A stretch of 64,000 nt of DNA. It comes from Ceratodon purpureus (lineage: Eukaryota > Streptophyta > Bryopsida > Pseudoditrichales > Ditrichaceae). The position numbers were made by a program, and so were the translations under genes. Each line of letters begins with the position of its first letter. Position 1 is the stretch's first letter. Positions 9,199-34,565 of the stretch are shown here, in pieces. Below the pieces are notes generated by a model that did no database searches, was not told the DNA's origin, and saw only the letters and a program-made list of their open reading frames with translations. The DNA lies in the NCBI GenBank assembly GCA_014871385.1, contig CM026426.1, positions 51,942,478 through 52,006,477 of the forward strand, written 5' to 3'.

Positions 9199-9447
9199 AC
9201 CCCGCTCGCGCCCCCCCTGAACCCGCTCGCGCCCATTCCCCCTGAACCCGCTCGCGCCCCCCCTTGAACCCGCTCGCGCCCCCCCTTGAACCCGCTCGCG
9301 CCCCCCCTGAACCCGCTCGCGCCCCCCCCCTGAACCCGCTCGCGCCCCCCCTGAACCCGCTCGCGCCCTCCCCTGAACCCGCTCGCGCCCCCCCCTGAAC
9401 CCGCTCGCGCCCCCCTGAACCCGCTCGCGCCCCCCTTGTACCCGCTC
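9199..9447. repeat. Array 4 of GCTCGCGCCCCC units
   Basis: About 12 very regular units of TGAACCCGCTCGCGCCCCCC downstream of the RING gene. Unlike the other three arrays it has no convincing TATA box and gene next to it. It may be a subterminal repeat of the block A element. Confidence 0.93.
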
Positions 9448-9827
9448 TCGCCCCCTATACATGCTGGCACCCCTTTTGCATATGTGGAATTCCCCGTCAT
9501 CGTTCGTTGTCCATGTCATCAATATGTTTCCCCTATAGGTAAGTTGTAAAAAAAAAAAACTAACTTAGTAATTTTCCTCCTCCCCTCAATGTCCGATTGT
9601 GTCCGGGGACCGACCGGTCCGTTCGTCCGTCCGTCCGTCTATGTCCGGAAATTTTGCCCATGTCCGTCCGAATAGACAACCCTGTTTGGAAAAAGGGAGA
9701 GCGTACAACTTGGCATTTACCGAAAATTTATTCATATTTGGCAGTACAAACATCTAACACAATCCTAGCGCCCGATCACTACACTAAATTATCAATGCAG
9801 GCATTTAAAAGATGGACTAGGCCTGAT
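9448..9827. other. Block A/B junction with a GTCCG-rich run
   Basis: Noncoding. Between about 9590 and 9690 the pentamer GTCCG recurs many times (for example four in a row in CGTCCGTCCGTCCGTC). This may be an element terminus; the matching other end is not in the window. Confidence 0.4.
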
Positions 9828-12800
9828 TTACTGACCTCCACCTTTGTGCTTCTTCAACCTAGGCTCCCGTTTTGATGCCCGCGGAGGTGACAGAACGTCC
9901 TCTGGAGCGTCCACATTCTTGGGACTCATGTGCTGTTCCCCAGATGTGCCCTTCTTGGAGGAAGTCTTCTTCGAAGCAGCCTTCCGTTTGCCCTTCCCAG
10001 ACGACTCCTCCCCTTCCTGAACCCCTGAGGAATCACGCGATAAGTTACCCACAAGAGAGGAATCCTGAGCAGTACCATCGGTCTTACTTCTCTTCAATGC
10101 TCGTGTCTTGCCGAGAGGGTTCTCATCTGGGCCAATCATCCGAGTTGCGCCCTTCACACCGTGAGTGACGAATGCGATTGACTTCCCTGTCAACTTGGAC
10201 TTGGCAGAGGGATTAGATGAGGTTTGCTCGTCTGCCGTCGGCTGCTCGCCGACGGCAGCAGGAGGAAGAGGCCCTTCAATGCTCACTGCAGGCTCCTGGG
10301 TTGGCTTCTGGACACGGACAACCACTTCATCGTCAGGCCTCGATGCTAGAAGAACGTGCATCTTCTTTGGAGGCCCCGCCTCGTCTAGGTCACGTTCTGG
10401 CTCGGCGACAGGAGTCTCCTGCTCATGTATTGTAGGAGAATTAATCCCGAAGCTGAGGGAGTCAGTTCCTTGCTCCCCTGTAACTTGCGATAGCGGTGGG
10501 TTCACGTAACGAGGATTCGATTCTTCCAGTGGTACCACGTCGGGTTCAGGTTCATAGTCTAAGTACTCCGTGTATTTCTCGGCTACCAGTGCATCTCCAG
10601 TTGGAATGCGAGCCTCAGCTTGGTCGTCCCACTTTCTTGGCTGTTCCTCAACATCTCCAGTTGGAAGGTAAGCTTCATCTTCAACGTCTGGGTCGGGTAC
10701 ATCTGGTGGGTCCTCGTCGACATCGTCGTCGGAGTCCTGAAAATTCTGTGAGGGAACCCCCGCATTCTTCCCCGAACCCATACATCCACCCTTCCCGACC
10801 AAATGGGCCTCCTCCGCATTCACACCCAAGTCGGCAGCCGTGAGAGTGCTAGTCCTGGCTCTAGTAGAGGCGGGGACAGACGGCCCGGCCCCAGACTGCG
10901 TGGTCTGAACTGGAGCTTCGACGGGCACGTTATAAATGCCCGGAATGAACGTCATATTCCGAACCCGACAGTGCGCTTCGTATCTCTCTTCCTCGGTACG
11001 CACGATCTCAATTACAGTCAAATGGTTTTTTTGCAGAAAAACAAGACGAAACGGTTAAGGAAATCTTGTACCCAAGAAACACGAAGGATGCAATGAGCGT
11101 CGGCTGCCCGCCGACGATCGGTGAGCAAACAACGAAGGCACTAGAAGAGACAGCAGTGACTTACCAGAGCGAGGGCCGTGACGTTCCCCCCTCTCCAGCA
11201 ATTGATCACCCGAACGTTCTCAAACTGCATCGCTTTCTCTAGAAGAGATTGGAGGAAAGAGTAACTAGCGTGGCAGTCTCCATTAGACCAATCCTCCTCA
11301 AGACCATCTTCTCCTTCGTCCACATAGTGAGGAAGCGGACGTTTCAAACCAGTGAAGTCCGAGAAGGTATTCCATGCATCCCCGGGCGTTGTTTTTGGAT
11401 ACATAACGGACACATGAACCTTGGGTCTAGAGTCAATGAGAGAACTCCTTTGAAACCCGGCGGAACTATCAGGGAAGTATTGTATAGTATGCACCGTCCA
11501 CGAACTACCCGTCAGCCTTGACACGCCTTGAAGAATGTAATTGGAATCATCATCGAGTAGCCACAAGGATGGGGTGACAAGCTTATTCACCTTAATTGTT
11601 TCTCCCTCCCCATCCACCTGAATGACCTCCTCCTCCACCTCACGGTGAATCTTGTCAGCGACAGTTAGAACGTGTTGTTGTCGCAAGTTCGGCATCTCCT
11701 TTCCCGCTGGATCGTAGCCAAAGACTACGAACATCTCATACTGCGCCTTGTTGAAGGAGAATGCTCCGCGAACGTCAAGAGCTGTGCACACTTCACCCAG
11801 GTCCTGTGCAATCCGGGCATCGAACTGTAGAGACGACTGCGAAGACTGGTCCACATCCGACTTCCACTACTTTTGCACAATGTCTTTGAAGAATTCTGGT
11901 GTTGGCCCGTGCAACGGCGTGAGCGGATGAGTCCGTCCTTTAAGCCACTCCTTCCCCTCAGGATTATCTTCCAAGTCAGCCCGAATATTACTAATCATTG
12001 TATCATTGAACCCCTTCTCGACTTGAAGGGAATTCCAGTCATCCATGCTCCACTCAATATGCTTCTCAGTCCCTGGCTTCCTAAGTGCGAAGCCCCTGTA
12101 AATGCACATAAGCTCGTTTCGGACAACATACTCGTACTTCACATGAAAACACCAATTCACCAATGATATTCCGTCCCGTTGAACCACCTCTTTCCCAAGG
12201 ACCTTGACGTACACTTTAAGGTCCAGAATTTCCTTGGCCAGCCTCTTGCATTCGTGGTCCCGAAGACCGATCACGTACTGCATGTCGTTGAGTGTTATGT
12301 CCCGGCGGCCTGGCTTTAGGGGAAATCCTGGTTTTAAACCGTCCTCCCCGATGATCCTCCCCTCCTCCCAGGCGTTGAAGACCAGTTGCCACTCGTTGTA
12401 TGTTTCGTCAGACACGAAGACTAAGGGCAGCTTGAAGGTTTGGGACGTAGGGGACTTTTTGAGAATCGGACTAAGGTACTTCTTGCAGAACTCCTGCAAG
12501 GAAGAAGAAAATGAAATCGATAAATAAATCCCACAATTACAATACGGAAAACCACCTGAGCGTCGGCGGGCCGCCGACGACTTTCAACTACATGGAAACA
12601 ACAGAAAAAGAGGAAGATGTGAATTACCTTCTATGCGCTGAAGTCATCTTTCTTGTCGATCCTCCCCCTCTCGATCCATTTGGCGCGCATCTTCTCCAGC
12701 TGGGACCTAAAACTTACTTCGGCGACTTTATCCTTCACCTCGATGTTTAATGCGTTAGAGACCTTAATGAGGGTATCCTTGTTATCAGCATATACAGGAA

Positions 12801-13767
12801 TGATATCGTGGTTAAGGTAATACTGCCGCATAGGAGAGTCCAGTGGTTCCTTCTCTCCCAGTTCTCGACAAGCCTCAAACATGTGCTGGCCTCCAATTAT
12901 GTACCAGTGGATGCCCTCATCTTCATACCAAGGTACCAGCTTATCTGTGCCGTCATCCTGTCTAAGTGAATACTTGATATTTAGGGCTGGCATAGGTCTA
13001 AGAATTGCTTCCAAGCCTTTAAGCTTAATGATCTCGCCCGTCACTGGATCCTTTACTCTGGGGTCACTACTCATAGGAAGGGAGTACAGCTTGGGCTTCT
13101 TCCGGATTGCTCGAAGTCCTTTGTAGAAAAGACTTATCTGATCCTGCCTCTTCCTGAATATCGCTCTGTACTTAAATGTTTCGGGAGCTATGTGTATCTC
13201 GTCATATGGAATCTGACAAGGAAGGGCACGTTGTCCGTTGGGGAAGCAGTGCCCAAGTCCCTCCTCCAACGTCTGGTACATAGCAAGGACGTCGGTGTCC
13301 TTTATTTTGGAAGTGAGATTGTTTGCAAGCATGAGAGCTTCCGCGATGGTCTGCTTTTCCTCTTCCTTCTTCCCACCTCTCTTCTGTCTCCCACCCTCGC
13401 CCTCAGCAGCAACTGCTTTTCCCTTCTTCTTTCTCGATGACTCCCCTGTCGCCTGTGTCACTCCGGTCTCGGGGGTGAGTGTACCAGTGCCCGCTTCTAT
13501 AGCAGACTTGTGGCCGCCTCTTTTCTTTGGTGAAGGCTTAACCAAGCTCTTCGTCTTCTCTTCCATCACTTTGTCTCCAAGCGTATCAATCACGTCGAGT
13601 ATGTCGTCACTTTTTACAGGAGTGTTCTCGCCCCTGCCCCAAGGAGCCGCTTCCTGTACTTCCTTGGAGCACAAGCTGTCCATGCACTTCTTAGCCGGAA
13701 TTACAACCGCGAAGCAGTCCACTAGACTGCCCTCCGCGATAGGAACATCGCAAAACTCCCTCCCCAT
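9828..13767 (-). pseudogene. ParB-like / DNA-methyltransferase-like element protein (block B)
   Basis: Three exons on the minus strand: 13767-12628, 12493-11165 and about 11030-9828. Exon 1 has a lysine-rich stretch and then a ParB/sulfiredoxin-like domain (IPYDEIHIAPETFKYR, then WYIIGGQHMFEACRELG, then HDIIPVYA). Exon 2 has LVFVSDETYNEW where adenine/N4-cytosine methyltransferases have their DPPY motif, then INCWRGGNVTALAL where they have FxGxGT. The second intron cuts this motif and exon 3 resumes with KNHLTVIEIVRTEEERYEA, matching the 'GIEIDPEY' end. The tail is acidic then basic. ParB-methyltransferase fusions are known in phages. The catalytic motifs look degenerate, so enzyme activity is doubtful. 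Two in-frame TAG codons (12633-12631 and 11869-11867) break it, and the exon 3 acceptor reads CAA instead of CAG. Start chosen where translation of the upstream palindromes ends. The gene in block D is homologous. Confidence 0.65.
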
Positions 13768-14057
13768 CGGCGGACAGCCGACAAGGGGATGGACACTCCC
13801 TTCCATCGGCGGACAGCCGACGAGGGGGATGGACAGCCCCTCCCCATCGGCGGACAGCCAACGAGGGGGATAAACCCAAAATAAAAACCCTGCATCGGCG
13901 GACAGCCGACCGGGGGGAAAACCCATGTGAGAAAATAGAAAATTGAAGGACTCAAGAAGGGGTGGGGTCGGCGGACAGCCGACGGGAAGGACAAACCCAT
14001 GCGAGAAAACCGAAACTATGAAGGACTCAAGAAGGGGAGCGTCGGCGGACAGCCGAC
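13767..14057. repeat. Cluster of six block B palindromes in a local tandem repeat
   Basis: Copies at 13767, 13806, 13847, 13895, 13967 and 14041. The last two sit in a duplicated segment (GGACTCAAGAAGGGG...ACAAACCCATG). They lie immediately upstream of the minus-strand gene, as expected for a leader or promoter. Confidence 0.85.
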
Positions 14058-14130
14058 TGGACAACTTACCTACTCTCGGAGGCTGCCATGGCGTCGGCAG
14101 ATGGCCTTTCACCGTTGGCGGATGATCCAC

Positions 14131-15099
14131 GAACAGCAGCCGACGCGCGCTTGTGAAGGAGCCGACGCCCTCAACCCTAGCAGCCGACGCAGGAAAACTT
14201 AGCAGCCGATGCGACCTCTGCGGAGCGCTGAGAAGAGGACAAAAGAGAGCTGAAAAAGAGAAGGCTAGAAATGAGGAGGAAATTTCGGGGGTAGCGGGTG
14301 TATACCCTGCAGACCCCCACCTCCCGAGAGTGAATCGTCACGCCCGATGGGTCATGACGTATGGCTATGTACATACCATCCATGCATGGATGGTCATCCC
14401 TAACATCCGTCCCATCACGCCACGTAGGATGTTGATGGGACGTGTTTTGACTTTTTTTCAATCCGTCATCAAGTCAAGATGGCGTGGGCATGTGATGTGA
14501 CAGCTGCTCCAATCGCCACGTTCAAATTCGTAATAATGAACTAACATTGATCTGCGACGGCGGGGGTATCTTGCCGCCATGATGGGATCTTGATCTGTTC
14601 AAGGCGCGCAAAATTGAATTTGATTCTGGCGCCAATTTGTACTCCTAGGAATTCATAACTAACCCTCCGTCAGATGCGCATATTGCATTCTATTTCTGTC
14701 ATTGCACTTTCGATTCCCTCTGAGAGTGCTCCTGACGCACACGTTTCCTGAGAGGACCGTTATTATTCTCGCATGTGCTTAACTGTCCAGCACCTTCTGT
14801 TGCCGTTTCTGTTGTCTTCGTTTATCGTTTCTGATTGGACGGTTGAGAGGAGTCTCTGATTGGACAGGTTAGAGGACACCATACTGCTTTTCACCTAAGG
14901 TTCCCTGCAATTTCTGTCGGCGGACGTGTCCGTCATCGTCGGCGGATACTATTTCTGTGCACATTCCGAGTTGTACGATCCGCGTCGGCTGCCCGCCGAG
15001 TCGTCTTCGTTGTCGGCGGATACATTTTTCTCCGTCGGCACGGACATTTCCCGTCTACCCTATCGGCTGTCCGCCGACGAGGTCTTCTTCTTTTATGCA
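14131..15099. promoter_or_regulatory. Divergent intergenic region of block B
   Basis: Separates the minus-strand ParB-like gene from the plus-strand transposase, so it should contain both promoters. It has palindromes at 14984 and 15063 and half-motifs near 14092 and 14928, and a CCATCCATGCATGGATGG self-complementary stretch near 14388. No clear TATA box was found. Confidence 0.5.
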
Positions 15100-18000
15100 A
15101 TGGAAGTAGAGCCGATCCAGATGTTTTTAAGGAATGGCCGATCAGGGCGGTGGAAGGTTAAAAAGGGCGTTGTCGTGGCCCTTACTCATTCTGGGCTCTA
15201 TTATGCAAGCAGGGCAGTGATCCAACGTGTTGTAGAATTTGATCCTATAGTGGTGATGGTAAAAGTGATTGAGGTTTCAGACAGCATGGAAATGAATATA
15301 CCATTTCCGGATGAGGGTGTGAAGTCCTTGAGCAACTGCTTTGGGCGCATGATATTGTGGGAGGCGGCCGTCCTCAGGCCTTTCGGAGAGGTGGAAGACA
15401 ATGACATCAACGCCGTTGGCTCCCGCCGACGGATGTTGAAGAAGATGTCAAGCCCGTTCAAGAATTCCTAGACCTCGCAGAGCAGATAGAAGTTGCGCTC
15501 CTCGAGGAATCCGGAGGCTCAAAGCGTTGTGTAGCCGCTGGAGTCATTATGGAGTGCTCTCCTAAAGGAACGTGGGAGGGGTTCTTGATTCCTCACAGCT
15601 TCTTTCTAATAGTGAGAGTTTCGTCCGTCAATCTAGAATTCTCTGAAACACCTGCTTTCTGCGAGTTATCGGATGTGTTGACGATCGATTGTGCTGTGGG
15701 GCGATTGGTACTTTGGAGTGGATACAAGGTATGTCCACTTGTGAACGGCGCGTTGGCTGGTACATGTCCCGTTGGCTGCTTGCCGACGGAACCTCACTTG
15801 GGGAACGACAATGAAGAAATTGATAAAAGCAACTCCGCTCCGTCTGAGCAGGATATGGGGACTAGGTTTCCAATAAATATCAGCAGTGACGACGATGTGT
15901 CTAAACAGGGGGAATCCGACGTAGACACAGATGATCATTGTTGGGGTTCGGATTCCGGGACCTTGGGTACTCCTTCCACTTCAGATGCTTCTTATCCTGA
16001 CCGCCACCTCTCGAGAAATTGGTATGTCGAACTTCTTAATGATGACCTATCAGTCCGTGGTAGAGCAATGATTCAAGTATGTTTACCGGACGAGGCATGT
16101 GATGATGAAATCCTAGGGGATACAGAGGTTGGGGTTCTCTTCGACTCTAAAGACGATCATCTGCAGATGACAACTCTCAGATGGCGTCTGACTCACACTC
16201 GCTTAGAAGGGGGTCACCTTCTCTCTGATATAATTACTTACTTCTCCGAGAATTTAGCAGACGCCGACGCGGACGATGGTCTGGATGGTGTCCCGAAGAA
16301 TGCCTATCGATCGGTGAGGAAGAAAGTTCGCCAAAAAGATGACGTCTCCTCTACTAAGCTTCGTCGAATGGTTGTCCCTGCTGAATGCCGCTTAGTGAGC
16401 TCAAAGCGGTGTTGCAAGGACCGATGTTGCTAGACTTTTAGATGAGAAGATACTGTGCGTATTCGTCGTAGATTTTACGCAACAACATTCGAGGCGGGGC
16501 GAGAGATGTCCTTTGCTGTGCAAGGGCACTTACGTACTGTACCCGGCAAGCGGAAGCTCTATGTTACTCTTGCGAACGTTGACGTATGTGAAGTGGCGTG
16601 GTATATCATTCACGGAGGATCAAAATCTGCGTACTACAGCTACAAGGCTTCGGCGCGAAGTGGCCGTGTCAATGGGAGTCACGGAAATTCCGGAGTACAT
16701 CGTCCCCAGATTCACACAGTCTAGGCACGCGCGACGTTGACCACTATTGTTAATGAGAATGCCGACTAAATGCCCAATGAGTTTCGGATGATTGGCAAGA
16801 AGAGAGTGGCCGCGCTCAAAGTACTCCCGTCTGCGATGAACTGGAATCACATGCGCAAAATGGCCAACGCCGTAAGTTCCTCCTCATCTTCTTTCACTTT
16901 GGATAGTTTATTGAATTGTAGTGATTACTATCGTCGGCGGCCCTCCGACTGGATGACGAACTTGCCAACTGATCAGCCTCACTCTGTGCTATTCAGGTCA
17001 ATGAGCAGTGCAACGCGAAGCCGATTTCGCAGTCCTCCGTTAGTCGCATGAGGAAGGAGTACGTCCGCAACGTTGAGGTCAAGGCGGTAGGAAGTAATTT
17101 CTCCAAGTGCATTGAGTGTGACTTCCTCGTTGAACTCGTTGCCAAGTATCCTAGAGGGTCGGACGAGTGGCAGAGCTTGACAGAGGATAGGACCAGGCAT
17201 TTGAACTATCAGCGAGCTTGTCGCAACATTTATTACGGATGGACAACCCAATCTATACAGAGTCCTACTGAGTTCCTATGCATCATACACGATAAGATGG
17301 ACACATCGAAAATAGCGATCCCCCGGATGCAACATATCACGAAGGCTACGGCAGGGCTTGGTCAAATTCCGATTTCCTGTACTCGAATGCTGACTCACGA
17401 TCACGGAGATGGCGCCTACGCACACTATGCAACTGCCCTGTGGCCAGAAGACCCAAATTTCACAATCTCCTCGTTGTGCAGGGTATTCCGTGCCTTGGAG
17501 AGACTACCTGTCCGGGAGTCAAAAGCACTCTTCGAGGCTCCGCCACAGAATGAATTCTTTGAAGCGCTAATGCATGGATTGTCACGTTGCATCCCCTCAA
17601 TTCCACCCTCTAGAGATGAGCCACTCACTCCACCTCTGCCTGGTAGGCCTGCTGTTCCTTTGCCGAAGAAGTTGTATCTCCAGCTTGACAATTCAGCGAA
17701 GGACAACAAGAACCGGTTTCTTCTAGCATTCTGCTCCTTGCTGACGGCGAGGCGAATATTCAAGGAAGTTACAGTTGGTTTCCTGATTGTGGGACACACA
17801 CATGAGGACATCACACCCACTTCAGTCACCTGTTGAAACTCATTAAGCGAAAGAACACATACTGCCTTGCCGACCTTATGAAGGCATTCATGGATTCTCA
17901 GAAGACAGTTGCCTTTATTCCAGAGGTTGTTCAGGAAGTGGCAGACTTCAAAAGTTATGTTGCTGATTTTCATCACGACGGAGATAATGCGATCGAAGGT

Positions 18001-19008
18001 CACAGTGAAATGCATCTTTTTAAGTTTTATGTAGTGGAGGATGGGGAGGATGCGGGGTGGCCCGTGATGAGGTACAAGAAGCGTGCAACTGATCCGTCAT
18101 GGCTTCCACCTGGCAAACCCGTGAAAATGTGGAGGGCAGACAAAGAGGGTAAACCACGTTTGCCCGTCGGTGATCCCAAACCGGTTCCTCATAAGCACTT
18201 ATGGGGTAGTGTTGAAGTTGATGAGGGCAAGAGGAACGCGGATAAAGAGGTGGCAAGGGCAGCGGAGTGTTCAAAGAAGAGAAATTTCATTAAAAGTGGA
18301 TTATCTAAGTACATTGAGTATTGGAGAACTGGCATGGCTCGGGATAAGAAATACGCACAAGACATGTTACCATATGTACTGTATTGGGAGCGAATTTTAA
18401 AGGAGGTCAACGAGCCACTGCCCCCCAATTCCGCCACCTTACAGGAAGGATTCTGGCCTATCTCAGACTGGAAGCGGGACTACGTCACCACATTCGATGC
18501 AGAGGACGAATATATACCGGATCCGGATATTCGTCCCGGTGACGAGGATGAGGTGGAGCCCTATCCTTTCTGCGGTCCGAAAAACTCTACGCGGACGTCT
18601 GTGTTTAACCCATATCGTGACGCTTTACGTGGCGATTGGGTATTTTGTCGTCCGTGTAAGGAAGACCACCTACCCATTTGGATGGGTAGGGCAATAGAGC
18701 TTGTTATAACAGAGCCTGGTCTAAATTACGGTAAGTTCAAGGTTGAATGGTGGACTCCGATGAAGGGCTAGAAGGAAAATAAGAAGAAAGTTGCGAGAGA
18801 GTGCTGGACAAGACGGTGGGAAAGGGAGTTGACTCTTGCGGAGTGGGTGGAGTGTAAATCCGTTGTATACACTCATTGGACCAAGAAAACTACGCATGAG
18901 GGCCCCCCAAAGTCCCATCTGTTACCCGAAGATGTTGTGATTGCTGCCATGGCAAACTTCGAATCGCATGGAATCTCGACGAATTGGAATGACGAGGAGG
19001 AAGACTAG
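15100..19008 (+). pseudogene. DDE-type (DUF7869-like) transposase, decayed (block B)
   Basis: Exons at about 15100-15728, 15852-16871 and 16997-19008, with good GT-AG borders. The core in exon 3 has IIHDKMDTSK, then HDHGDGAYAHYA, then LYLQLDNSAKDNKNRFLLAF, then FLIVGHTHEDI followed by HFSHLLKLIKRKN after a frameshift. Spaced D...D...E within 'DKMD', 'LDN' and 'HTHED' is what DUF7869-type proteins show; I infer an RNase-H-fold transposase. FSKCIECDFL upstream may be a zinc knuckle. Breaks: frameshifts near 15420, 16410 and 17810 (the last looks like one lost base in an EDID.HF segment), further loss of frame near 16740, and an in-frame TAG at 18769-18771 after which the frame continues for 79 codons to the stop. 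It is divergent from the ParB-like gene and shares its palindrome, so I treat both as parts of one element. Confidence 0.6.
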
Positions 19009-20650
19009 TCGGCTGCCCGCCGAGGATTGTGATCTTAGCTGTAGAAGACTTAGGTTGTGATGGTTTCCTCTGTAAACGTTATAGTTAATATTGTAAACAT
19101 TGTGATTCCTTCGAATAAGAATTGTATTTTACCATAGACCCAATACTAGTCATGTATTACGCTTTGTCTTCTATTTGTTGTTCTGATGCCTTACTTTTCC
19201 TTCTTCGGTGGTCGTCGGCTGTCCGCCGATGCCTCTAACCATGTTAGATAAGCATCATGAACGGTGACTTTGTGAGGCTGGTCTATATTGTATGGCCTGT
19301 GATTTTTACGGTGGACACTGTTACTCTAGTCGGCTGCCCGCCGACGCTTTCCACAACATTGGTAGAACCACTATGCGCTTTGAGAAACTGGGAAAAAATA
19401 TTTATCCATTTCATTATATTCTTATCGGAGTACAACGGTAGTGTTCCGCCCTTTACATGTTACTTTGTATTGTGTATACATCAGAGATGCCACTACTCCT
19501 AAAGCCTAAGTAACAAATGCTAACCATGAATTCTACAGCTATCTGAGTGTGTGAAGCATCTCTATTGAAAACGAGCTGGACAATGTCAACACTCACTAAT
19601 TCACCCTAAAGCCTTTGTACATGGAGAAAAGCCCCATATGGTCGCCAACGCCATGCAGCGATCAATCCTTCGCAGTAGACTTCGCTCGGACAGCACTACA
19701 CCTAGTATCGACAATTGGATGCACGGATCCAAACGACGAATACGTGGACTGCGGGCTTGCGTTCCCTCCGCACCAGTGATCTTGGCCAGAGCACCGACTT
19801 CCAGCACCCTCTGAGATGTCGTAAGCTTCGCCAACAATGCGGAGCCACCCTGCAGTTGACATGGTTTGCGTTGACACTTCCCATGTTTGGCTGAAGTGAA
19901 CGCTGCCAACACTCTCGGACTACTCAGACTCCTCGGATTCCTCGAATGTCAGTGGGAAGGCAATGCCGGAAGCGTCAAAGATCTCCAACAACTCTATTGT
20001 GTGAGCAATACTCCAATCCCACTCCGCACTTGGCTGAAGAACGCGTGTGATGTATTTGAAAGCAGGAATAGCTCTGTTGCGTGAACGGGCAACCACCGCC
20101 CTAAACCATGGCCGGAGCTCCTCGATGTCAGCCGGTGTCTCCTGTATAAACCAGTCATTGCTACCCCGCCTCCCCATAACGACAAAATATTGGACAATAT
20201 GCGACTAACTTCTACAGTATGCGACCTTCTTCTACAGTATCCGGTTGGAGTTCGTCTAGTAAACTGGTAAACGTTCTAGTAATCCACTTCTCTAGGGTTT
20301 TCTGGACGACTAGTTGCCAACGTAGACCTAGTCTAGTATACCCTACTCTCCTACTCGGCTGGTAGCCGACTAGGACTAGCTTACTCATCATTTGCATCAC
20401 TAGGACTAGGACTTATTTACTCATCATTAGGACTAGTAGCCCCTACTCTCCTACTCGGCTGGTAGCCGACTGGGACTAGCTTACTCATCATTTTTATCAT
20501 TAGGACTAGGACTAGGACATCATTTTTATCACTAGGACTAGGACTTATTTACTCATCATTTTTATATGTATGTCAAATTCCAGAGGTCGGCTCAGTGAGG
20601 AAGAGGTTGGCTCTCCTAGTCGGCGGCCAGCCGACTAGAAAGGACTTCCA
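19009..20650. other. 3' part of block B with palindromes and weak minus-strand coding remnants
   Basis: Palindromes at 19008, 19214, 19329, 20355, 20455 and 20619. Between 20340 and 20580 a short repeat of CTCGGCTGGTAGCCGACTAG and ACTAGGACTAGGACTTA occurs several times. Minus-strand frames at 19662-19877 and 19920-20177 are possible remnants of an unrecognised gene. Confidence 0.5.
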
Positions 20651-22951
20651 TTCGTTGTGACCATGAATACTGTTCATTCTGAACGACGACTCCGGAGTCC
20701 TCACAGACGGACACCCCAATGTGAGATGCCTGGCAGTCGTGTCCACTCAGCGGGTCGCCGACGATCTTCCCTTCACCCGCTTCACTTCACAGATCCACAT
20801 TTTGCAGAGCAAGTATTTCCTTTTATTAGAACAAATAGATTTCTAAGGATAGGGTTTCTAGGGTTTAGGGTTCTCAATCAGCCACTCGCCGAGAGATTCG
20901 GCCATGACAATGGGACTTGGATGTCCTCTATTCAACATTATATTAAAATTCACTCAAATGATTTTATCCCTTGTAAGCGGAATGCATTTTTTCATAAATA
21001 TTTGACATCTTTGTCTTTAAATTTGAGGGATAACACATGAATTGGACGTCTACTGATGATGCAAAGTAGTCCATAATTGAGCGTTTTGTCCATAATTACC
21101 TTAAATACCCCTTAATAAAAAGAAAAGGATAGAGGAGAAAAAGGTTTATATATTTATATTACTACTTTTTGGTCACAAATGAAGAAGTTCCGGTTACTGC
21201 TATAGATATTGCTTTCCCGAAAATATAAATTATGAATGCAATAAATTCTTTCTATACGTGGCACCACCCCTATGGCTGGACTCGCTCCCCGCGGCCGCCA
21301 CTATTTTTTTTCCCACTGCCAAGCCCGACGTGTCGTGAACAGTCCACGACGTTGTTTCAACTTTTTTACACTCTTCGTGTATGTCGCCGACGCCCGAGAC
21401 TGCCTCGCTCCTCCTTTCTGCGTCGGATTACCGAGACAGCTTTGTACTGTCTCTCTCCACGCGAAGCGCAAGATTGTTGTTCTAGCAGCGAAGTTGGAGG
21501 TGTGAAGATGTAGGGTTATCGGCGAACAACATTGTTTTTTTAGGTTGGATTTTAAGCGATCTTGTTCTTTATTTGGGTCGGTTTTCATGGGTTTGTAGAG
21601 GCAAGCATGGACATGTAATTGTCGATAGTTGATCATAGTAGGTTTTAGCTATTCTAGAAACCCTAGGTCAAGATTATCTTTGGCGCTGGAGTAACCTCCG
21701 TTGAGGCTGTGGCTTCTGTTCACGTATCGACTTGTTACGATACTATTTGGAGAGTTTATGTGAGCGGCGCTGCATTTGAAGGTACGTTGTAGGGTGTAAA
21801 TTGTCTTGTTTTCTGCTCCGAAGTACGTCCTCTTGTGCTATTATTGTTACTGCTTTTTAGTACCGAATTTCTAGGTCTTCTTGTTGGTCCTTAGTTTCTT
21901 TTGTTGCTCCGAAGTAACGTTAATAGTCAGTGAAGTTGTTTCTGTAGTTCCAAAGTTCTGTAGAGTATGATACTAAGTTTCTCTATGTGGAAGAAATGAT
22001 TCTTTCTGTTTAACGTTTGCGAGTCGCTATGTGTCCATTTTTGCGTCGTTGTTTGTGTTCTATGACGACCTAAACTGTCCCATTAATATATTTGGTCTCT
22101 TGCGTGTTTTGTGCAGATCTCTTTTCTTTATCGTATAGCCACAAGTTGCGTGAAACTGTACTAGTAAGCGTTTTGACATTCAAGGTAAGAGTGACCTTAC
22201 TTGAATTCTGTCATCATCATTGTGATGCACAGAATCTGCGAGTTCTGTCTAAGTTTTATAGAACTTTACCGAATCTGATTTGTTAATTTGATTCAATATA
22301 GATCTAGTAAACCTGTGAATTAGATGATATTGAAATGGTAATGTATATGTGTCACGGTATTGGTATATGAGTGCCGACGTGTAAACTTTTGGAAAGGAAC
22401 AACATAGCTAATTTCAACTCCGCACCCAAAATTACTGTTTTTGCAGTACTGGTATGCACTTTTTCTTTTGTCTAAACTGTTGTTGTTGTTAAATATTCTC
22501 TCTTCCAAGTGTTCCTCTACGTCTCCCAAGAGAGTGCATGATGTGTTCTATATGTTTCTTGTCTTGACATTGTACTACATACCGGTTTTAGATCAACCCA
22601 GACGTTGTTGTAGATTCACGAGTGTTCGCTTATAGTTTTCAATGAGAGCACATATTTTTTTATCCAAATTTCAAGGGAGTTTCAATTATCAAGATGTTTT
22701 GCATCTAATAATTTCATATGTAGAGCTTGTTATCTGTACAGTTCAATCCATAGTTCCCCAAAGTAGAATGCAACCGAGTTCTAATTCTATGAAACTGTTG
22801 TATCTCTTTTGTCGTTTTCATTTTAAGGTATTTCTATATTTGTGTCTTTGTATCCTCTGATTTCATTTTCTTTTGCATTTGCATTACATAGGAACTCATT
22901 TTGATGTTAACTGGTATAGAGAATGTGGAAAGTTATTTCCACGGTTGGCAC
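20651..22951. other. Spacer between blocks B and C, no gene recognised
   Basis: Short frames only. Near 20846-20873 there is a short run resembling plant telomere repeat (AGGGTTTCTAGGGTTTAGGG). No RNA gene, transposon end or conserved domain was recognised. Confidence 0.5.
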
Positions 22952-23303
22952 ACCGGAATACTAATTCCGGTAGAAAAATGATAAAAATTAAAAAAAAATT
23001 GTGTTAAGAACATAGAAGTACTACTGAGATAAATGAAACAACCGGTTAAGACGGTTGGCTGAATAAATAAGAGAACCGGAAGGTCATCCGGGTGAGATCC
23101 CGTCGTCTGAGTCGAAGGAGAGGAAGCACCGTCCATGTGACGGAACCTTGATACCGCGGACTTAAGGGTAACCGCCGGAGGGTACGATGCACGCGGGAAG
23201 AATGGCTGCAACCATTAAAGCGCCGCCGGTCGCGACCGTCCAATGATGAAAGGCTACGACCGTCCGTCATGATGAGCTACGAACGAGCGGGAGTGAGTGC
23301 AGG

Positions 23304-23310
23304 TATAAAA
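23304..23310 (+). promoter_or_regulatory. TATA box of the block C gene
   Basis: GGTATAAAAGG lies 205 bp before the ATG at 23515, preceded and followed by GC-rich sequence without other long frames. Confidence 0.6.
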
Positions 23311-23514
23311 GGAGGAAGAGCAGCCGTGCTCCTCCTTTCTTTTGTCATTTTGTGGCGCGCTGGATCCTTGTGTTGCGCGGCGAAGTGCGCAGTTAGGGTT
23401 GGGACGGTAGAAGAGAGAGACGGTGAGACAGAAGTGTTTCCGTTAGTTGAGGGATTGTGGTGAGGATCGTGCGTGCAGGTGCTACCGGAGTGACGATGAG
23501 GAGGACTTAGCAGG

Positions 23515-25389: not shown

Positions 25390-26540
25390 AAGTTAGGATA
25401 AGGACCGGATAAAATGGCAGCGACTAACGATGGGGCTCAAGTGCACCCGGCTGCCAATCCGGATAGATAGCGGCAGTAACTAGGAATAGAAGGCGGCCAC
25501 CGGTCCGGGATTCCCGGATCCAAGATCCGGAATTTCTGGATCTCGGTGGGCCACTTGGTCGCTTTAGGATCGATAGGTTTTAGTATTTAAGCTGGACGTT
25601 TTTCCAAGGCCGGGGCCTTGTTTTTGTACGCCGTTTTGTTGTTGCAATTGAGAATATACTTTTGGATTTGTTGTGTCGACCGGCTGGCTGACAGGTTTGT
25701 TACCGTAATGGTTTGTTGGTACTATTGTCTTCAGTAGTGTTCCAAAGGAGTGTTGAACAATGGGATAGTTTGGAGAGCGCCCGGAGAGACTGGGAAAGTG
25801 TCAAGCGTTGAGTGTTGACGGTTTCCAGTCCCGGAAGGAGCCCGGAGGGGAGGAGAGACGTACTGCAGCAGGGCTGGTAGTCTTCAGGACACGGAGGGCC
25901 GTGTGTATACCGAGATCCGGAAACGGACCGGTCGCTTCCTGTAGATGGGATAAAAGCCGGATTTCCTACTGCGAACCAATCCGGAAGGGAGATGATATAG
26001 TTAGAATACCGTACAACCGTAAGGTGATGTCATTGTAGTATGATTTCTGTATCCATAACCGGCACTGAGTAGCTATCCGGACCGGTACCTAGTCATACGG
26101 AAGGATTATTACTCCACTTCTCGGGTGGTAGATAGGAACAGTGGGGTGTCCAGCCACTTAAAGTCACGGGACGGTGGAGAATCCAGCCACTTGAAAGGAT
26201 AGACGGATCAGTGGGAACCGGCCACTAGTCTAAAAAGCCGGAAAATAGGAACGAGGCAAAAACTACCGGACCAGGCCAACCGGTCGAAAGACGGAATACG
26301 GTTGGATTCGGGTGGTGATTTCCGTGATGATCTAAAAGGAAGAAAACTATAGGTCTTCGTGGGAACGAACACGGAGTGGTTTACTTTGGAGGGTAATTAG
26401 AGTGAATTAAGTGCCTTTCGGAGGAATACGGATACCACGTCGTGCTACAGAGAAGTCTATAAATATACAGGTTTGTATGTTTCATATTGATATGTAAGAT
26501 ATAAAGTAGATTTAACACACAGTTACAAATTAATATAAAT
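25390..26540. other. 3' region of block C, noncoding
   Basis: CCGG sites continue to about 26290, then stop. No long frame. CAGTGGGGTGTCCAGCCACTT and related phrases recur loosely between 26110 and 26230. Confidence 0.5.
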
Positions 26541-27479
26541 AAAAGTTTAGCTCACTGTGAGGTAAACTCTAACTAATTAGATGCAAAGTAAGCCTATAGT
26601 GCGTTGATAAACAATAAGTACAAGAGATATTTAGCTCACAGTGAGCTAAAGTTGGTCGAATCTTCAATAATGTATCTAAAGGGTAGCAGTATAATCCCGA
26701 GGCCAAGTATTATTTTGCTCATTGTGAGCTAAACCTCTATCTGATATAGCACAATTTAGCTCATAGTGAGCTAAATGAAACTAGCATTTAGAATTGCTTA
26801 GTTCAAAATAAGAGAACTTCTTGACCAATGAACACCACCTTCGCTCATAGTGAGCTAAATTACGCCCAAACAAATATCAATTTAGCTCACATTCAACCTA
26901 TTTGTCTGGAAAACTAGTAACATACTACGCTTACTTCAAGCATTTGGACAAATTAAGATGAGGTTTGAAGAAAGTGGATCATCCTGAAATTAGAATACGG
27001 CTCTAATTTAGCTCATTGTGAGCTAAATACATAGCCTCTCGAGACAGAAGATACCATCATTAAGGTGTTACATTATTGTAGATGCAATACAATTTAGCTC
27101 ACTGTGAGCTAAATTATGTTTTGATTGTAGTCTAAAAAGCAGGGAACGTGCTGAAAGTGTCCCTTTGGATTTGAATCTAATTAACTTTTGTTTTCTGAAT
27201 TCGGGTTCTGATTTTCATCTACAGTCACTCCAAAGTAATCTTTGAGCATCTTGCGGAGGATCCACAACGGTAAAAAGTTTAGCTCACAGTGAACTAAATC
27301 ATTTAGAATATCAATGTATAAATTGTGATATCAATAACATGTTTCTAAAGTCTACTTAGAAGATTGTGATGATAGCTTACTAGAAGTGTAGAACTAGTTT
27401 TATTTAGCTCACTGTGAGCTAAATAATTTAACTGAGTACTTTATGTTCATTGCTAATGATAATCACACCTAAAGTTCTC

Positions 27480-30400
27480 ATGCCGGACGGGTATGATATG
27501 AGTCACCTCTAGCCCTTCATCGAGCCATTCATAAACCCGAATCCTGATGAGCCATTTTTTGAAGCCTCACTTGAACACTCCTACGGATCGCTTTGGAAGT
27601 TCAAAGATCATGTCGAAGGTTGGTCGATCGCTGTCTCAAGGTACGAGAAGTCTGTGTGGATACTACACAAAGAGAAGAATTTGCCACGGTATCTAGATCT
27701 ATGTGTCGTTGAGAGAGGAAAGGTAATTGAGGAGCATCACGGGAGTTATATTGTCGTGGTTGTTATGGCCGTTGATATAAAGTCTGAGTGTGACATTACA
27801 CACGTCCACTCTCTGGTCATCAAAGTCGAGAAGCAGAAAATAAAATTTGACCCGGAGCCATTGATAGAGAGTTTGATAGGAACATCGGGCGAAACCTTGA
27901 TGGACGAAATACAGAAGGTCTCGTGGAAGAGTGCTGACCGTGGCCCACTAAAAGCAGTTGCACTTGGGCAAAGACTGTCACGGGTTTTCCTAACACTTAC
28001 CCACTTCATCACAGACTCAGTCATAGCGAAGGCCCCACCCGTGCCATTACAGGGTGCTGCTGTTGTCTCTACCCGCGACGACTCTGCTAAACCATCTCGG
28101 GGCAGTGTTCAACAACAAACTTCCTCGGCAGTTCCAACTCCAGCAAAGTCCAGGGCTTCGAAGCGCCCGAGATTAGAAGCAGATGAAGACGGTCCTTCCA
28201 AGAGGAAAAAGAAGCAAACAACAAAGGCGGGAAGTTCCGGATCAGTGCTTATGCAAACAGAGGAGACGAAGAAGACTAAGAAGAACGATAAGGAAGTCCC
28301 AGATTATGAGAAGTTCACGGAGATTCAAAAGACCTTTTGGGATGACTGTACTGAGGCCTATGTATTCAATATGAATACGACATTCCCGGTGAATGTGAAG
28401 CAGTGCCACATTGCAAAAGACGAATATCATCAGAAACTTAGAGCGGGATATAGTAAAGTCCGTGAAGGAGGAGCTCGTACACATGGGTGATATTAATCAA
28501 AGACAGAAAGTTTGCCTTATGCCGGTGCAAGACAATATGGAGCTGTTGCCAGAGAAGCCAACGTCGTGGGATCAGATCAAGGATGGGAAGTTTATGATAA
28601 TTAACGGACAACATAGTATTGTTGCGTCGCAGGAGCTCCAAATCCAAGGATGTGGAGAAAAACGAAAGAAAGAACTCGAAACCTGGGATGCATACATAGT
28701 GTGGTCGAAGGATCCTCTTATTCTTGTGAGGATATCCAAATTCTACAACATGTGTAACCATCTCAACCACGCTCAACCTACGTGGGAGACAAATATCTTT
28801 AGCGCCCGTAATGTCTAGATCAGCCAGGGGAGACCAACGAATATAAAGGATAGTACGAGAAACAATGACGCAGTTTACAATGTAAAGAAATTTCAGATAA
28901 ACGTCTCACCCATAGATGGATATAAAAATGTAATTGTCGTGAGTTTAGCTCACAGTGAGCTAAATTCACATCTTCTCTTCTATCACCGTGAACTAATCCC
29001 GACTGAAGTGCATCTATTTCTGCTACCTCAAACTCAAGAACACTAGGAATTAAACGTTACTGTTGTAAATTGTTTTCTGATATGCTTTACCATTTAGTTT
29101 TAATCTACTCTGCTAATGTAGTGTTAGTCCCATTGTTTATACCGTGTTTGCAAAATTTGCTATGCTCTATGTGTGCTAAAATCCATAATTAATAACATAT
29201 TTCAACGACATGTTCTTTTCCAAAAATTTCTCGAGCTTCTGATCAAACTGTTTTAGAATATCGACCCCAATAAAGACGGTAAGAGTGTACAGGGGCCAGC
29301 GGATGTGAAGAACGAGATGGTGATTATCACCGCCGCGGAGGATCATTTCATGTTGTGGAGGGAATTTATAACGAAGCATAGCACTGGTGAACTGATTGAT
29401 CCAGAGACTTGCGAGCGCTTCAATCAGAAGAAGGGGTTTAAGGGTGGTAAAGCATTCCAGCTTCAGCGTAGCTTCTTTCGCGGGATGGGTTTCATGACAG
29501 AAGAAGAAACGGTGGATAATCCTTTCATCAAAGCTTTCCTGAAGAAGCTGATGGCGGTGAAGGGGCCCTCGATCTCGGACCCGGAAGTGTGGGTTTGGAT
29601 TTCTGCTACGCAGAAACAAAATGCCCAAGCGATCGCGTACGCAGAGAAGCACATGAAAGGATACTCAGTAGTTCCTTCCAGGTACATACCTGCTAAGAAT
29701 GAACGCTTCAACGACCACACCACCCGAATCTCTGGGAAGGACGAACTGTACTTGGTGTTCTTGTTGCGTGCTGGTGGTAAACATGACAAGAAGAAGGTGA
29801 AGGCGTCTTATACAGCTCCAAATACGAACTACTATACAGTGTATGGGCTGTACAAGGAAGCTCATCTACGGCTCAATGCTCGGGAATTGCGAATGGAGTT
29901 CTACCTGGAGTTACTGAATACATTTTGTTTGCCGGGTGAGAACTTCTGGGGGGTCTTCAGTGGAACCAAGTGCATGTTGGCAGCTCGGGTAAGCTTCCTT
30001 CTCATTGTTTTTTAGAAATGTATTTGTTCTATTTGTGATTTGTTTGGCTATTCTAATATTGCTCAACGTGAGCTTAATCGAATATGCTTCGCGTAGCTTA
30101 TTCAGTTTTTGTCAAAACTGTTTCTAAACTGTTTAGCTCACAGTGAGCTAACCGTGATAAATAGATTATTGAAATTAATTATTAACATGGAATGGAAGCT
30201 TACTGTTCTACTACACGTTGATACATAATATTAGGTACCATATTTTTGTATGGTGGTGATGTGCTTTTCTATGTAATAAATATATTTTCCCGACAGTGAG
30301 CTAATTCATAAAAGCACTGAGTGTTGTTGGCTTTGTAGTAAACCATTTGATGAACAGAGATCCTGCTTAACTATTTAGCTCGTAGTGAGCTAAATGTTTT

Positions 30401-31711
30401 ATCTTAAAATTTTATGTTATATCTAACTGTTTAGACTACTAGACTAGAACGATTTCCTTCTGTTCAAGTGTTTGCGGATTTACAATATGAGGCAGCGTCA
30501 ATTGTTTTTGGGGGTTAAGTTTATTAGCACTTCCAGTGGATTGTGAAACAAATGTGTAGCTCTTCAGTATGATACGTATTTATTTAGCTCATTGTGAGCT
30601 AAGTCAGGCGGATTTGAAGGTTACTAACAGTGTTAAGACATGTGTATGTGTTCCAGATATATGGTATGTTCTACTATGGAATCATTGACCACAACTTTGA
30701 TGAGTGTTACAAGGATATGTCAAAGCTTGTACCATCCCTTGATATCAATGACTTCATCCACGAGAACTCCGTCTATGATTCAAAAGAAACACAGCCCGCA
30801 CTGGAGAGGCAGCAGTTCCTTGAGAGCGACAAGTTTGATCGTCTTGTTGGTCTAGACTTGTCCACCGACGACGAAGACGAGGAGTCATCTGATGACATGG
30901 ATGACAATGTTGGTGCTGCTGAGGACCTTGGTTAAGACATAGGAGCTGGCTTTGATGAAGAGGATGCACGGCCGCCTAGCCCACGGACAGAGCCTCGGCA
31001 GCTGCTATTAGCTCACAGTGAGCTAAACATGGGTGCACCGCGGGCTCGAAGTCTTGCCCTCTACCTGAATCTCGCTTTAGAAGTCAGAGTTCTAGATTGG
31101 GTCGCCGATTAGTGAAGAAGTTCAATCTTGAGCAAGACCTCCAAGCTGATCTAGTGGGATCATCATCTAGGAGGAGGACCGAAGCGGAGGAGGAAGACTC
31201 CAGGGATAATGAAGAACCGATGGAAGAAACAGTTGTCGTGCAGGTCAAAGCCGGGGTTTTAATGGGGGTTCCCCTAGTACCACTAAGCGACTCCGAAGAC
31301 AATGATGGAGATGGGCCCTCTCCCAGTGCCAATTGCGAGGGCAAATCCTCGAGACCGGTTATTCCTACTGTCGCTGTGCGTCTCGAATCGGTACCAGAGG
31401 ATGAAGATGAGGTATTTAACGCCGCCGGTAAGGCTCCACATCCTGGGGAACCAATCGTCAAGAGAGACATTGATTGGTTTGATTGGAACATGGCGCGGAA
31501 AAAGAAGAAACAGGAAAAGAGTGAGAGGGAAGCGGAGGCCACTCGGATTCTTGTGGAGGAGGCTCGGCTGGCTAAGGAGAGGGCAGAGACTCAACTCAGG
31601 GAACAGCAGGAGAGAGACAAGCAACGCGACAAGGAGATTGCTGACATGAAAGCCATGCTCGCTCTTATGGTAGCTCAGAACTCTGGTTCCATCTCCGCTC
31701 TAGCCTTGTAG
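27480..31711 (+). pseudogene. ParB-like / DNA-methyltransferase-like element protein (block D)
   Basis: Exons 27480-28938, 29257-29988 and 30657 to about 31711. Exon 1 has a basic linker and then the ParB-like piece: VNVKQCHIAKDEYHQ, then KFMIINGQHSIVASQELQ, then WDAYIVWSKD. Exon 2 opens with EMVIITAAEDHFMLW at the place of the methyltransferase DPPY motif and ends with FWGVFSGTKCMLAAR; exon 3 resumes IYGMFYYGIIDHNFDECYKDM. This matches the FxGxGT...GIEIDPEY segment, with an intron at the same place and phase as in block B. The DPPY motif is absent, so methylation activity is unlikely. Breaks: TAG at 27510-27512, a frameshift near 28440, TAG at 28816-28818, TAA at 30933-30935, and a frame change near 31020. 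The C-terminus is acidic then a charged coiled coil ending at TAG 31711. Palindromes fill both introns. Confidence 0.62.
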
Positions 31712-31798
31712 CCTTGTCTGAGTATCGACTTGCCGGTTTTAGCTCACAGTGAGCAAACTAGTCTGGATGTACCTGGGAGTGTAAGCGCCGACACCGCT

Positions 31799-33406
31799 AT
31801 GGCTGAAAATCCTCCCCCTTTAGACTTACTTGCGATTACCCCTGTTTTGGCTAAAACAGCCTCGGAGGAGGATTTGCCACCGCCGGTTTCTAAGACCACC
31901 TGCAAGCCAGACACCCCGGTGCCTCGATCGCCAAATGAGGATGATGACATTGATAGAAATGTTGGTGGTGACCGAACCTCGATGGAGGTTGTTAAAAACA
32001 TTTCTAATGTGTCTGAGCAGGGGCAGGGTACCTTGGTGAACAAGCAGAGCTTGAAGGAAGGGCCCTCAGATTGCCACTTGGATACAAATGCACCTACAGA
32101 TGGCAAAGACGAGGAGTTGTTAGATTATGAGGACTCCCCGGAGGTATCACTGTCACTCCAAGATGCTTTGCCCATTTTCTTGGAGATCCAGAAGGGTGCA
32201 GACGGTCATGAGGTATGCGGTTCTGGGATTTACGTGAATCTTAACCTCTAAGTGTAAGGACTGCATAGTTATCTGCTTAAATAGTTTACCTTTTCTGAAT
32301 GATAAGTGATTGTACAAACAATTTGAAGTGTGACATCATTTATAAAGCTTACAACTTCTCATCCGGGTTTCCATTTCAGCCTAATACAAATATTGTATTC
32401 ACTGTAGTTATTGTTTCACATTAGAAATGTTTTGACTTTTACAAGAACTTGACTTGTTTAAATTGTTGTTCTGAATGGATGGCCAGCTAGAAGCAACTGA
32501 CTATGTTCATCGCCCGGTTGCTGTTAAATCTCTGGTTAGCGAGGTGGAATTGCGTTCAAATTGTTCAAATCAGAAATTCAAGTTGTCCTCGCCTTTTTGT
32601 CCTTCTGCATTTCATCAGGTAACGGTTTTTGTCTTGTTTCATTGCTTTTCCAGGCTGAAGCGTCTACAAAGGTCTCACGAGGTCTTAAGGGTGTAGCTCC
32701 CAAGAAGTGGCTGAACGTTGTATTGGACATTAATGGAATTCTAAGTAAATGCATCGACAGGCGGAGTGGATTGAAGGACTTAGTGACGAACCACGTTAAC
32801 CTAGTCTGTGTATGTTCGGCCGGGATTTTCAGATTTATATCATTAGTGAACACTTTCGCTCATGTCGTCGTATGGAGTTCGATGAAGTGCATGACAGCGA
32901 TGGATGTTGTGAATTACCTGTTCAATGGCTTGCCAATGCCTTTGCTTATACTTAGTCAAGCAGATTGCGACTGTATTGAAACATCTCGTCGTACTATCTT
33001 GAAGAACCCGGACGGAGACAAGCCGATTTTTCTCAAAACTTTGTTAAGGGGCCTTTTCGGGGAGAGTTCCACCTACAGCAGTGCAAACACAATCCTTATT
33101 GATGATAGTCCAGAGAAGAGTATATGTAACAACACTGGAAATGCGGTTTTCTTAGAGTCATGGGTTGAGAAAGATGCGGACGATTGCGTTCTTATGTCCA
33201 TATTGGCCCCATGGTTGTCAACGTTGGACAGGAATGCGAGAAATGGAAAACTAGTTGAGTACGTTGATGTAAACAGAATCGGAGTCCCTCCTCTGTTCCA
33301 AGACGATCCACTATTTCATCACATTTTAGAAGGGATGGTGCTTTCAACACGGAATATGGGTGTCAGATTTAATGTTTGCGGCGTTGGCAAACTTAAGGCT
33401 TTTTAA
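31799..33406 (+). CDS. FCP1/NLI-type HAD phosphatase-like protein (block D)
   Basis: Two exons: 31799-32212 (ATG to donor GAG|GTATGC) and 32654-33406 (acceptor TTTCCAG), both phase 0. Exon 1 encodes a proline/acid-rich region. Exon 2 is an FCP1-homology domain: LNVVLDINGILSK in place of the usual DLDETL, HVVVWSSMKCMTAMDVV for motif II, and ANTILIDDSPEKS for the late aspartate motif. FCP1-like HAD enzymes dephosphorylate proteins such as the RNA polymerase II tail. Here the first aspartate is kept and the second is Asn, a change also seen in some plant FCP1-like proteins, so activity is uncertain. No internal stop within this frame. The same frame is open upstream to a TAG at 31711; I place the start at the first ATG after the palindrome at 31738. 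Confidence 0.68.
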
Positions 33407-33638
33407 ACATTATTTAGGACAAATTGAACTTGCTCACAGTGAGCTAAACTGTTGACTATTTTGTATGTGTTTTTGTAAATGTCTTTCCACACAAAACATG
33501 GGTTTCAAAATTCAATGTTTGTGGCGTCGGCAAACATAGGGCTTTCTGAATTCATTTAGGGCGGACTAAATTGGCTCACAGTGAGCTAAACTGTTGACTA
33601 TTTTGTACATGTTCTTTTAAATGTATTTCTTAAACATG
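33353..33638. repeat. 143-bp tandem duplication over the phosphatase stop codon
   Basis: 33353-33495 and 33496-33638 are diverged copies. Each contains the end of the phosphatase frame (a GVGK-like segment), a block D palindrome, and CTAAACTGTTGACTATTTTGTA. Confidence 0.88.
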
Positions 33639-33761
33639 CTTAAATGTTTTTGTAAATGTATTTTTGAACTTCCTTCCACCTGAGTTGCCATTTATATTGA
33701 TTGTCATTTCCGATCTTTTATCTAATAGATCCAATTGCTTTTTTTTGTATTATTTCTCCAG

Positions 33762-34565
33762 GTTCCACCAATATGCTCCGTTTCTGGTGGCCTTAATTTG
33801 CAGGTACGGTCATTCTTTGGGAGCGCCATCCATACTTTCAAGTGGGAGGTGGTCGGTACATGCTCCATATCCGAAGGTGGAGCATTAAGAGGTCAAGATT
33901 ACTCCAAACCGTTTTTACTGTTCTCAGCAACTGATGCTGCTTCTGCGGCTATAGATTTCTCACGAGGGGACTTGGAGCAAGATGTTGTGAATAGTCCTCC
34001 TAGCAGTGGAGGGGATCAATTTGTAGCTAACTCACCTTCTCCTTTAAAGTTGGTTAGGAGATGCACTCCGAGACGGGAGCGTTCTACCTCTCCAACGCTC
34101 TAGACAGCATTGACCCCTCAAAGGCAATTATACGGGGCCCTTGGGTCAAAACGTGACCCTCCGGTAATCGAGACATTAGCTAATCCTGTTGTTAATACTG
34201 GTAAAGACCATGTTATTGAAACAAAATCCTTAGTTAGAATTATTTCTTTGCCTACGCCAATTAGTGAGCAACGTGATGGAGATCGTGGTGTTTCGAAACA
34301 CGTAATGCCGACAATGTCAAGTGGTGCCCCTAAACCTCCTCGAATATCAAGATTTCAGCCAACCCGTTCCTGTTCCTCTACAGGCCTAGATCTAGCGACC
34401 TTGAAGAGGCAAATGAGAGCCTCTTTAGCGCACCCAATTCTTCGACTTCAGACAAAGACTTCTATTTTTGCTGAATCCCACCCTAGAACAGTTTCGCGGA
34501 GGGGCGCGATCATGAAGGCCATGGAAGAACTCAAGGCAAGAGAGGAGATGAAGTCTCGTGTGTGA
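33762..34565 (+). pseudogene. Unrecognised block D reading frame with one internal TAG
   Basis: After a good acceptor (TATTTCTCCAG) the frame VPPICSVSGGLNLQVRSFFG runs to TAG 34101-34103, continues in the same frame as TALTPQRQLYGALG and ends at TGA 34565. It is serine/proline-rich with a short charged helix at the end (MKAMEELKAREEMKSR). No known domain was recognised. It could be a third gene of the element or a detached last exon of the phosphatase gene. Confidence 0.45.

Follow-up and report, generated by a model that had tools for sequence, protein, structure and literature searches.

Family-specific palindromes accompany a companion gene in DNA transposon remnants of the moss Ceratodon purpureus

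A 64,000-nucleotide stretch of the genome of the moss Ceratodon purpureus (C6:51942478-52006477, the whole of which is referred to as the window) contains the remnants of two DNA transposons, block B (window positions 9828-21114) and block D (26520-34600), of families in which a DUF7869 gene stands head-to-head with a large gene termed here the companion. Each block is interspersed with its own palindrome, GTCGGC-N5-GCCGAC in B and TTTAGCTCANNNTGAGCTAAA in D, and comparison with other copies in the 362-Mb genome supports the view that the palindromes are family specific and differ along with the companion protein. The most likely interpretation, which draws on analogy with the VANC proteins of Arabidopsis and to which we give an even chance, is that the companion binds the palindrome of its own family and keeps that family expressed. 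C6 (110,524,308 bases, ∼110.5 Mb) is taken as the V chromosome of C. purpureus.

Palindromes and companion proteins vary together

Block B contains 18 sites (7 perfect and 11 with one mismatch) against an expectation of 0.09, and none of 100 shuffles reached 18, while block D contains 16 sites at ≤2 mismatches, 6 of them perfect, against an expectation of 0.00. Neither palindrome is present at these thresholds in the remaining 44.7 kb of the window. The dispersed palindromes, described as different in B and D in an earlier note made from the letters of the window, are thus real. Exact counts for the whole genome are 2858 for B, 809 for D, and 218 and 2293 for two further families, E and F, compared with 3, 0, 0 and 0 when the patterns are read backwards. 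The same note had asked whether the palindromes occur genome-wide, and they are not evenly spread: 49 of the first 50 B sites listed lie in three places on C1, each with a B companion and a DUF7869 match, and the remaining one belongs to a short derivative that has a terminal repeat of B type.

Families E and F were recognized through the companion of block D, one exon of which has matches in the genome down to 31% identity. Palindromes were read directly in 5 of the 19 companion loci with <50% identity to the D exon. The E palindrome, TATCCTCGA-N-TCGAGGATA, is common to three of these loci (L065, L066, and L069; 38-45% identity), and its sites adjoin, by coordinates, two further companions of the same class (C4:9934527 and C5:50251). 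The F palindrome, TTTAGCTCGA-N-TCGAGCTAAA, was read in L067 (31% identity). The fifth locus, L068 (32%), most resembles F: its two conserved exons are 46% and 31% identical to F, versus 32% and 26% for E. Next to these exons lie two F-like sites, one with 1 mismatch and the other with 2.

In all 30 B, all 30 D, and all 3 E loci read, the family's own palindrome is present and the three others are absent (L005 and L035, among the B and D loci, are the window's own copies), and the D palindrome is kept in D loci down to 77% identity. The one overlap is that the D pattern, searched loosely, also picks up sites in the F locus, the D and F consensus sequences being only 2 letters apart. The F palindrome combines the outer half of the D palindrome with the inner half of the E palindrome, and the reciprocal, unused combination of half-sites has 0 occurrences in the genome. 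Covariation of protein subfamily and palindrome had been named in advance as a point on which the proposal could fail; it held, in that two more families with diverged companions have their own palindromes in promoter and introns.

Position, conservation, and form of the sites

Coding spans, which were set partly by eye, make up 62% of block B and contain 2 of its 18 sites; the 16 others agree with the earlier description of the palindromes as mostly intronic and intergenic. Sites within coding spans are similarly few elsewhere (0/10 in L066, 0/13 in L065, 0/4 in L048, 1/14 in L067, and 3/15 in a B copy on C1), and the L067 site at 4950, scored as coding, is intronic by comparison with P0005. 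In L065, L066, and L067, sites are concentrated in the introns and promoter of the companion gene itself.

Most palindromes in diverged introns stand out as conserved. The D copies L048 and L064 agree in 17-21 of the 21 letters at four sites, with flanks that are 26-38% identical, and L048 agrees with L058 in 19 of 21 letters at four sites. In the E family, 8 of the 10 L066 sites retain 15-19 of 19 letters in L065, with flanks at 23-47%, and 7 of the 10 retain at least 14 letters in L069. The aligner anchors on the sites, and their presence is therefore surer than their exact positional homology.

The form of the site is informative as well. Among 72 distinct B sites, the extensions of the two halves are T/G in 55, G/G in 14, T/T in none, and other combinations in 3; facing bases are Watson-Crick pairable in only 14 of 72 sites, compared with 35.4 expected if they were independent. 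This is a poor fit to an extended RNA stem and a good fit to DNA half-sites. In D, F, and E, sites also form regular arrays, which repeat at steps of 41, 47-48, 53, and 104 bp.

Two side observations concern D palindromes. Four lie at C2:9721505-9722047, near a DUF7869 match at C2:9723964, with no D companion among the matches listed there, and an isolated one (L079, C1:18062350-18062650) is separated by ∼19 kb from a D companion; the sequence around it does not resemble the short elements described below.

The companion gene and its homology

The companion consists of a GQH core, a methyltransferase-like segment, and one or more FCP1/SCP-like domains at its end, and families E and F carry the same gene. 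The GGQH and NGQH motifs on which the earlier note based its reading of the block genes are present, but that reading has to be corrected in that both window copies are damaged (Table 1). The B copy is interrupted by two in-frame stops and truncated near 9828, without the 3′ part bearing the FCP1-like domains; the D copy is frame-shifted and is without part of one exon present in other copies. Open-frame copies exist elsewhere in the genome. Two introns are at corresponding places in the B and E families, as judged by eye, and the acceptor of the last B intron is uncertain. A terminal repeat connects the window copy of B with the one on C1: over 31 bp, the right end of the former is 90% identical to the left end of the latter. 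C6, which makes up 30% of the genome, holds 51 of the 64 D and 41 of the 77 B companion matches listed.

Pairwise BLASTP of the window B exons against the D exons gave no homology (E = 1.9 for the GQH stretch and 0.16 as the lowest value among the matches listed), and profiles were therefore compared. One annotated F-type protein matches B with an E value of 2e-5. With hhalign, B exon 2 aligns with F/E proteins at the GQH region (Prob 88.7, E = 2.5e-6) and B exon 3 aligns with the next F/E region (Prob 53, E = 1.4e-4), in the same order. The B and D companions are homologous as judged by profile comparison only; homology of the two proteins, as claimed previously, is thus retained at the level of profiles and was not seen in pairwise BLASTP. 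Diverged B-type relatives (P0015, P0016, and P0018, with 52%, 35%, and 66% identity) were also seen on short ENA contigs.

The proposed origin of the companion from ParB and methyltransferase parts is not supported: these labels rest on short motifs, and no profile or sequence search bears them out. No convincing ParB or methyltransferase relatives were found in Pfam, NCBIfam, PHROGs, PDB sequences, or tblastn searches against phages and plasmids. The ParB domain (ParB_N, PF02195) had no match in Pfam, NCBIfam, or PHROGs, and a low-power hhalign comparison with two ParB sequences gave a Prob of 0.5, versus 4.3 for a reversed control. Profiles for N4/N6 DNA methyltransferases gave no match, the DPPY-type position being judged by eye only, and the sole AlphaFold model of the companion (pLDDT 32.1) is unusable for assigning a fold. 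Weak plasmid and phage hits (E values of 3 to 9) were dropped as relatives, as were four viral-contig loci (L080-L083); the match in L081 lies in a 96-residue frame with the word HWYIIGGEH and is taken as chance.

The FCP1/SCP-like end of the companion is a feature absent from the earlier note. NIF domains (PF03031) above the Pfam cut-off are found downstream of the GQH region in all four families. The D, E, and F loci read have one each, and the B copy on C1 has three, in the part that extends beyond the break of the window copy. In two NCBI gene models of F type (P0001 and P0003), the NIF domain is at the C-terminal end of the companion, in the same model as the GQH region. The catalytic motif of FCP1/SCP phosphatases is DxDx(T/V). 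Its second Asp is replaced in all six domains read (LDINGI, LDLNGV, LDLNGI, LDIISL, LDIKGL, and LCVNGL), and we therefore take these domains to be pseudo-phosphatases.

Linkage to DUF7869 and short derivatives

Linkage of the companion to DUF7869 was assessed with the best 150 of 1396 DUF7869 candidates in the genome. A DUF7869 match lies within 25 kb of 34 of 64 D companions and 33 of 77 B companions, and head-to-head partners number 32 for each family; under random placement, the mean number linked was 1.9 (D) and 2.8 (B), with a maximum of 6 in both cases. None of the 19 diverged E/F-class companions has a match from among these 150 within 25 kb, and their partner either scored below the best 150 candidates or is something else.

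Short elements with a single palindrome were found for two families. A terminal repeat of B type lies near an isolated B site at C1:2805555, and the element to which this site belongs is present, itself included, at 40 places with 94-100% identity (of 348 candidates). The B terminal word and a perfect palindrome occur together at only 9 places in the genome, 4 of them among the 40 copies, and no special retention of the palindrome in short B derivatives is therefore shown. Of the first 50 E sites listed, 31 are clustered and 19 isolated. Eight of the isolated sites were fetched, and in alignment all eight prove to be the same short element, which is ∼250 bp long and surrounds the palindrome; these elements were selected because their palindrome is perfect, and any connection with the ends of E is putative.

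Table 1. Positions in the window of the genes, exons, domain, terminal repeat, and palindromes of blocks B and D
Feature	Position	Strand	Basis or detail
Block B companion gene, damaged	9828..14089	-	Frames and splice signals read from sequence; genome relatives; hhalign homology to F/E
Block B companion, exon 1	~14089-14070	-	
Block B companion, exon 2	~13726-12628	-	GGQH
Block B companion, exon 3	~12493-11165	-	
Block B companion, exon 4	~11030-9828	-	
Block B DUF7869 gene, divergent from companion	14899..19008	+	Matches in frames 16973-17833 and 17806-18768; Pfam PF25273 E=9.8e-28 (above cut-off) and 1.1e-4 (below)
Block B palindromes, ≤1 mismatch	10237, 11099, 12562, 13766, 13805, 13894, 13967, 14041, 14984, 15062, 15771, 16933, 19008, 19214, 19329, 20354, 20454, 20619		Span 10237..20635
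Block B right terminal inverted repeat	21068..21114	-	31 bp match left end of C1 copy; 47 bp match short derivative
Block D companion gene, frame-shifted and internally deleted	27513..31711	+	Frames 27513-28490, 28399-28818 (NGQH), 29257-30015 (methyltransferase-like segment), 30618-30935, 31022-31711
Block D FCP1/SCP-like (NIF) domain	32717..33229, frame 32540-33406	+	Pfam PF03031 E=2.9e-7, 30.7 bits, cut-off 21.8
Block D palindromes (TTTAGCTCANNNTGAGCTAAA), ≤2 mismatches	26546, 26630, 26713, 26755, 26839, 27007, 27093, 27278, 27403, 28944, 30132, 30374, 30583, 31007, 31738, 33570		Span 26546..33590

What may read the palindromes

We propose that the companion, probably as a dimer, binds the palindrome found repeatedly in the promoter and introns of its own family, and that it would thereby keep the copies of that family expressed, either by countering silencing or by means of its FCP1-like domain, which would act on RNA polymerase II. 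Several points weigh against this proposal. No DNA-binding domain in the companion was recognized by any profile search, and the DUF7869 protein is a possible alternative reader. Coding spans contain exact B palindromes, two of them in the copy on C1 and one in block B of the window. Two of the 10 sites of the E copy L066 have no counterpart in L065 and three have none in L069, as is the case for two window D sites in L048. The lack of DUF7869 matches, among the best 150 candidates, near E/F-class companions counts in the same direction, and the short B derivatives are weakened as proof of retained function. A more specific version of the proposal is a transposon address system: the companion would join a DNA reader to FCP1-like domains that lack catalytic activity, recognize only the palindrome of its own family, and couple it to RNA polymerase II, and families would have split by exchange of half-sites. 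This version is rather doubtful.

The DUF7869 protein, a putative transposase, could itself read the palindromes, with the companion merely traveling along and the covariation reflecting shared descent. The linkage of B and D companions to DUF7869, far above random placement, is consistent with this, as are the D palindromes at C2:9721505, which adjoin a DUF7869 frame without a listed D companion. Against it stands the concentration of sites in the introns and promoter of the companion in L065, L066, and L067, but sites are also present around the DUF7869 gene, so that this concentration does not decide which protein is the reader; we regard this explanation, too, as rather doubtful. The companion might instead be an accessory transposition factor for which the sites are docking points of a transposition complex, as they reportedly are for TnpA of maize En/Spm, any effect on silencing being secondary. 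Short nonautonomous elements with one site each, beside a B terminal repeat in the B type and in all fetched elements of the E type, are what this explanation has in its favor. The sites are spread across introns and promoters, though, and not just near the ends; the E-type elements were chosen for a perfect site and have a putative tie to E ends, and the B terminal word coincides with a perfect palindrome at only 9 places. We consider docking unlikely.

Two further explanations are much less probable than those. The palindromes could serve to maintain or replicate extrachromosomal copies, in the manner of parS or iteron clusters, as the regular arrays and the resemblance by eye of the GQH stretch to ParB might suggest; the relationship to ParB appeared in no search, however, and most sites read are single sites in introns or promoters, which leaves this explanation highly improbable. 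Action of the palindromes in RNA as hairpins, for example in splicing, would suit the many intronic sites, and a 6-bp stem with a 5-base loop is still compatible with them, but the shortage of pairable facing bases and the arrays upstream of the companion gene speak against it, and we give it the smallest chance of all.

Comparison with known systems

The closest parallel to the proposed binding of the palindrome by the companion is in Arabidopsis. Two papers (PMC5735166 and PMC10398659) describe VANDAL elements with family-specific motifs in noncoding sequence, both within introns and ahead of the transposase gene; these motifs form tandem arrays and differ between families together with the VANC protein, and both the binding of VANC to its motif, a 9-base YAGTATTAY in one orientation, and the loss of methylation are proven. 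The moss elements are similarly DNA transposons with an extra protein, family-specific noncoding motifs that vary with it, and tandem arrays. Unlike the VANDAL motif, however, the moss motif is a 17- to 21-bp palindrome, the linked gene is DUF7869, and the companion has FCP1-like domains and no other Pfam match. Pfam scans found DUF7869 and NIF, and neither a VANC-type protein nor a Mutator-type transposase, in the frames scanned. The moss system resembles VANDAL/VANC in logic and is not a member of it.

Other systems are comparable in part. TnpA of maize En/Spm reportedly acts through many short subterminal repeats of its own element, as the moss protein putatively does, but the moss sites are palindromes spread over introns and promoters. 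Bacterial and plasmid ParB proteins act at clustered parS palindromes; the moss elements share the clusters and, by eye, a ParB-like GQH stretch, without a detectable sequence relationship of the companion to ParB. BOGO DNA transposons have been reported from the sex chromosomes of Ceratodon, the same species, and are possibly the same elements. A literature search on parts of the pairing of palindrome and companion found nothing, in a search that left most subscription papers and bioRxiv outside. The strategy of self-recognition is already known; the moss parts are not.

Other features of the window

Between the two elements, block C (22900-26460) is packed with CCGG, with 78 occurrences in 3561 bp versus 1 to 10 per 3560 bp in nonoverlapping bins of the window. 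It contains frames at 23500-24636 and 24637-25389, the first of which had no significant match in a Pfam scan. Upstream of block B are four arrays of a CCCGCTCGCGCCCCCC-like unit of ∼20-24 bp (1554-1921, 3929-4118, 5903-6212, and 9201-9455) and a 210-bp unit repeated 5.9 times (4283-5521). An 802-residue open frame (6539-8947) has a RING-like Cys/His run by eye, with weak NCBIfam scores, and a 357-residue open frame on the minus strand (2154-3227) has, by eye, the look of a protein kinase fragment.

Implications

VANDAL/VANC is a documented case of sequence-specific self-recognition by transposons. If the companion of the moss elements does bind the palindrome of its own family and keep that family expressed, it would be a second, apparently unrelated version and would point to more than one origin of the strategy. 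The families would then provide natural pairs of protein and site from which a recognition code could be read, and such a system might help to explain why these elements are common on the moss sex chromosome.

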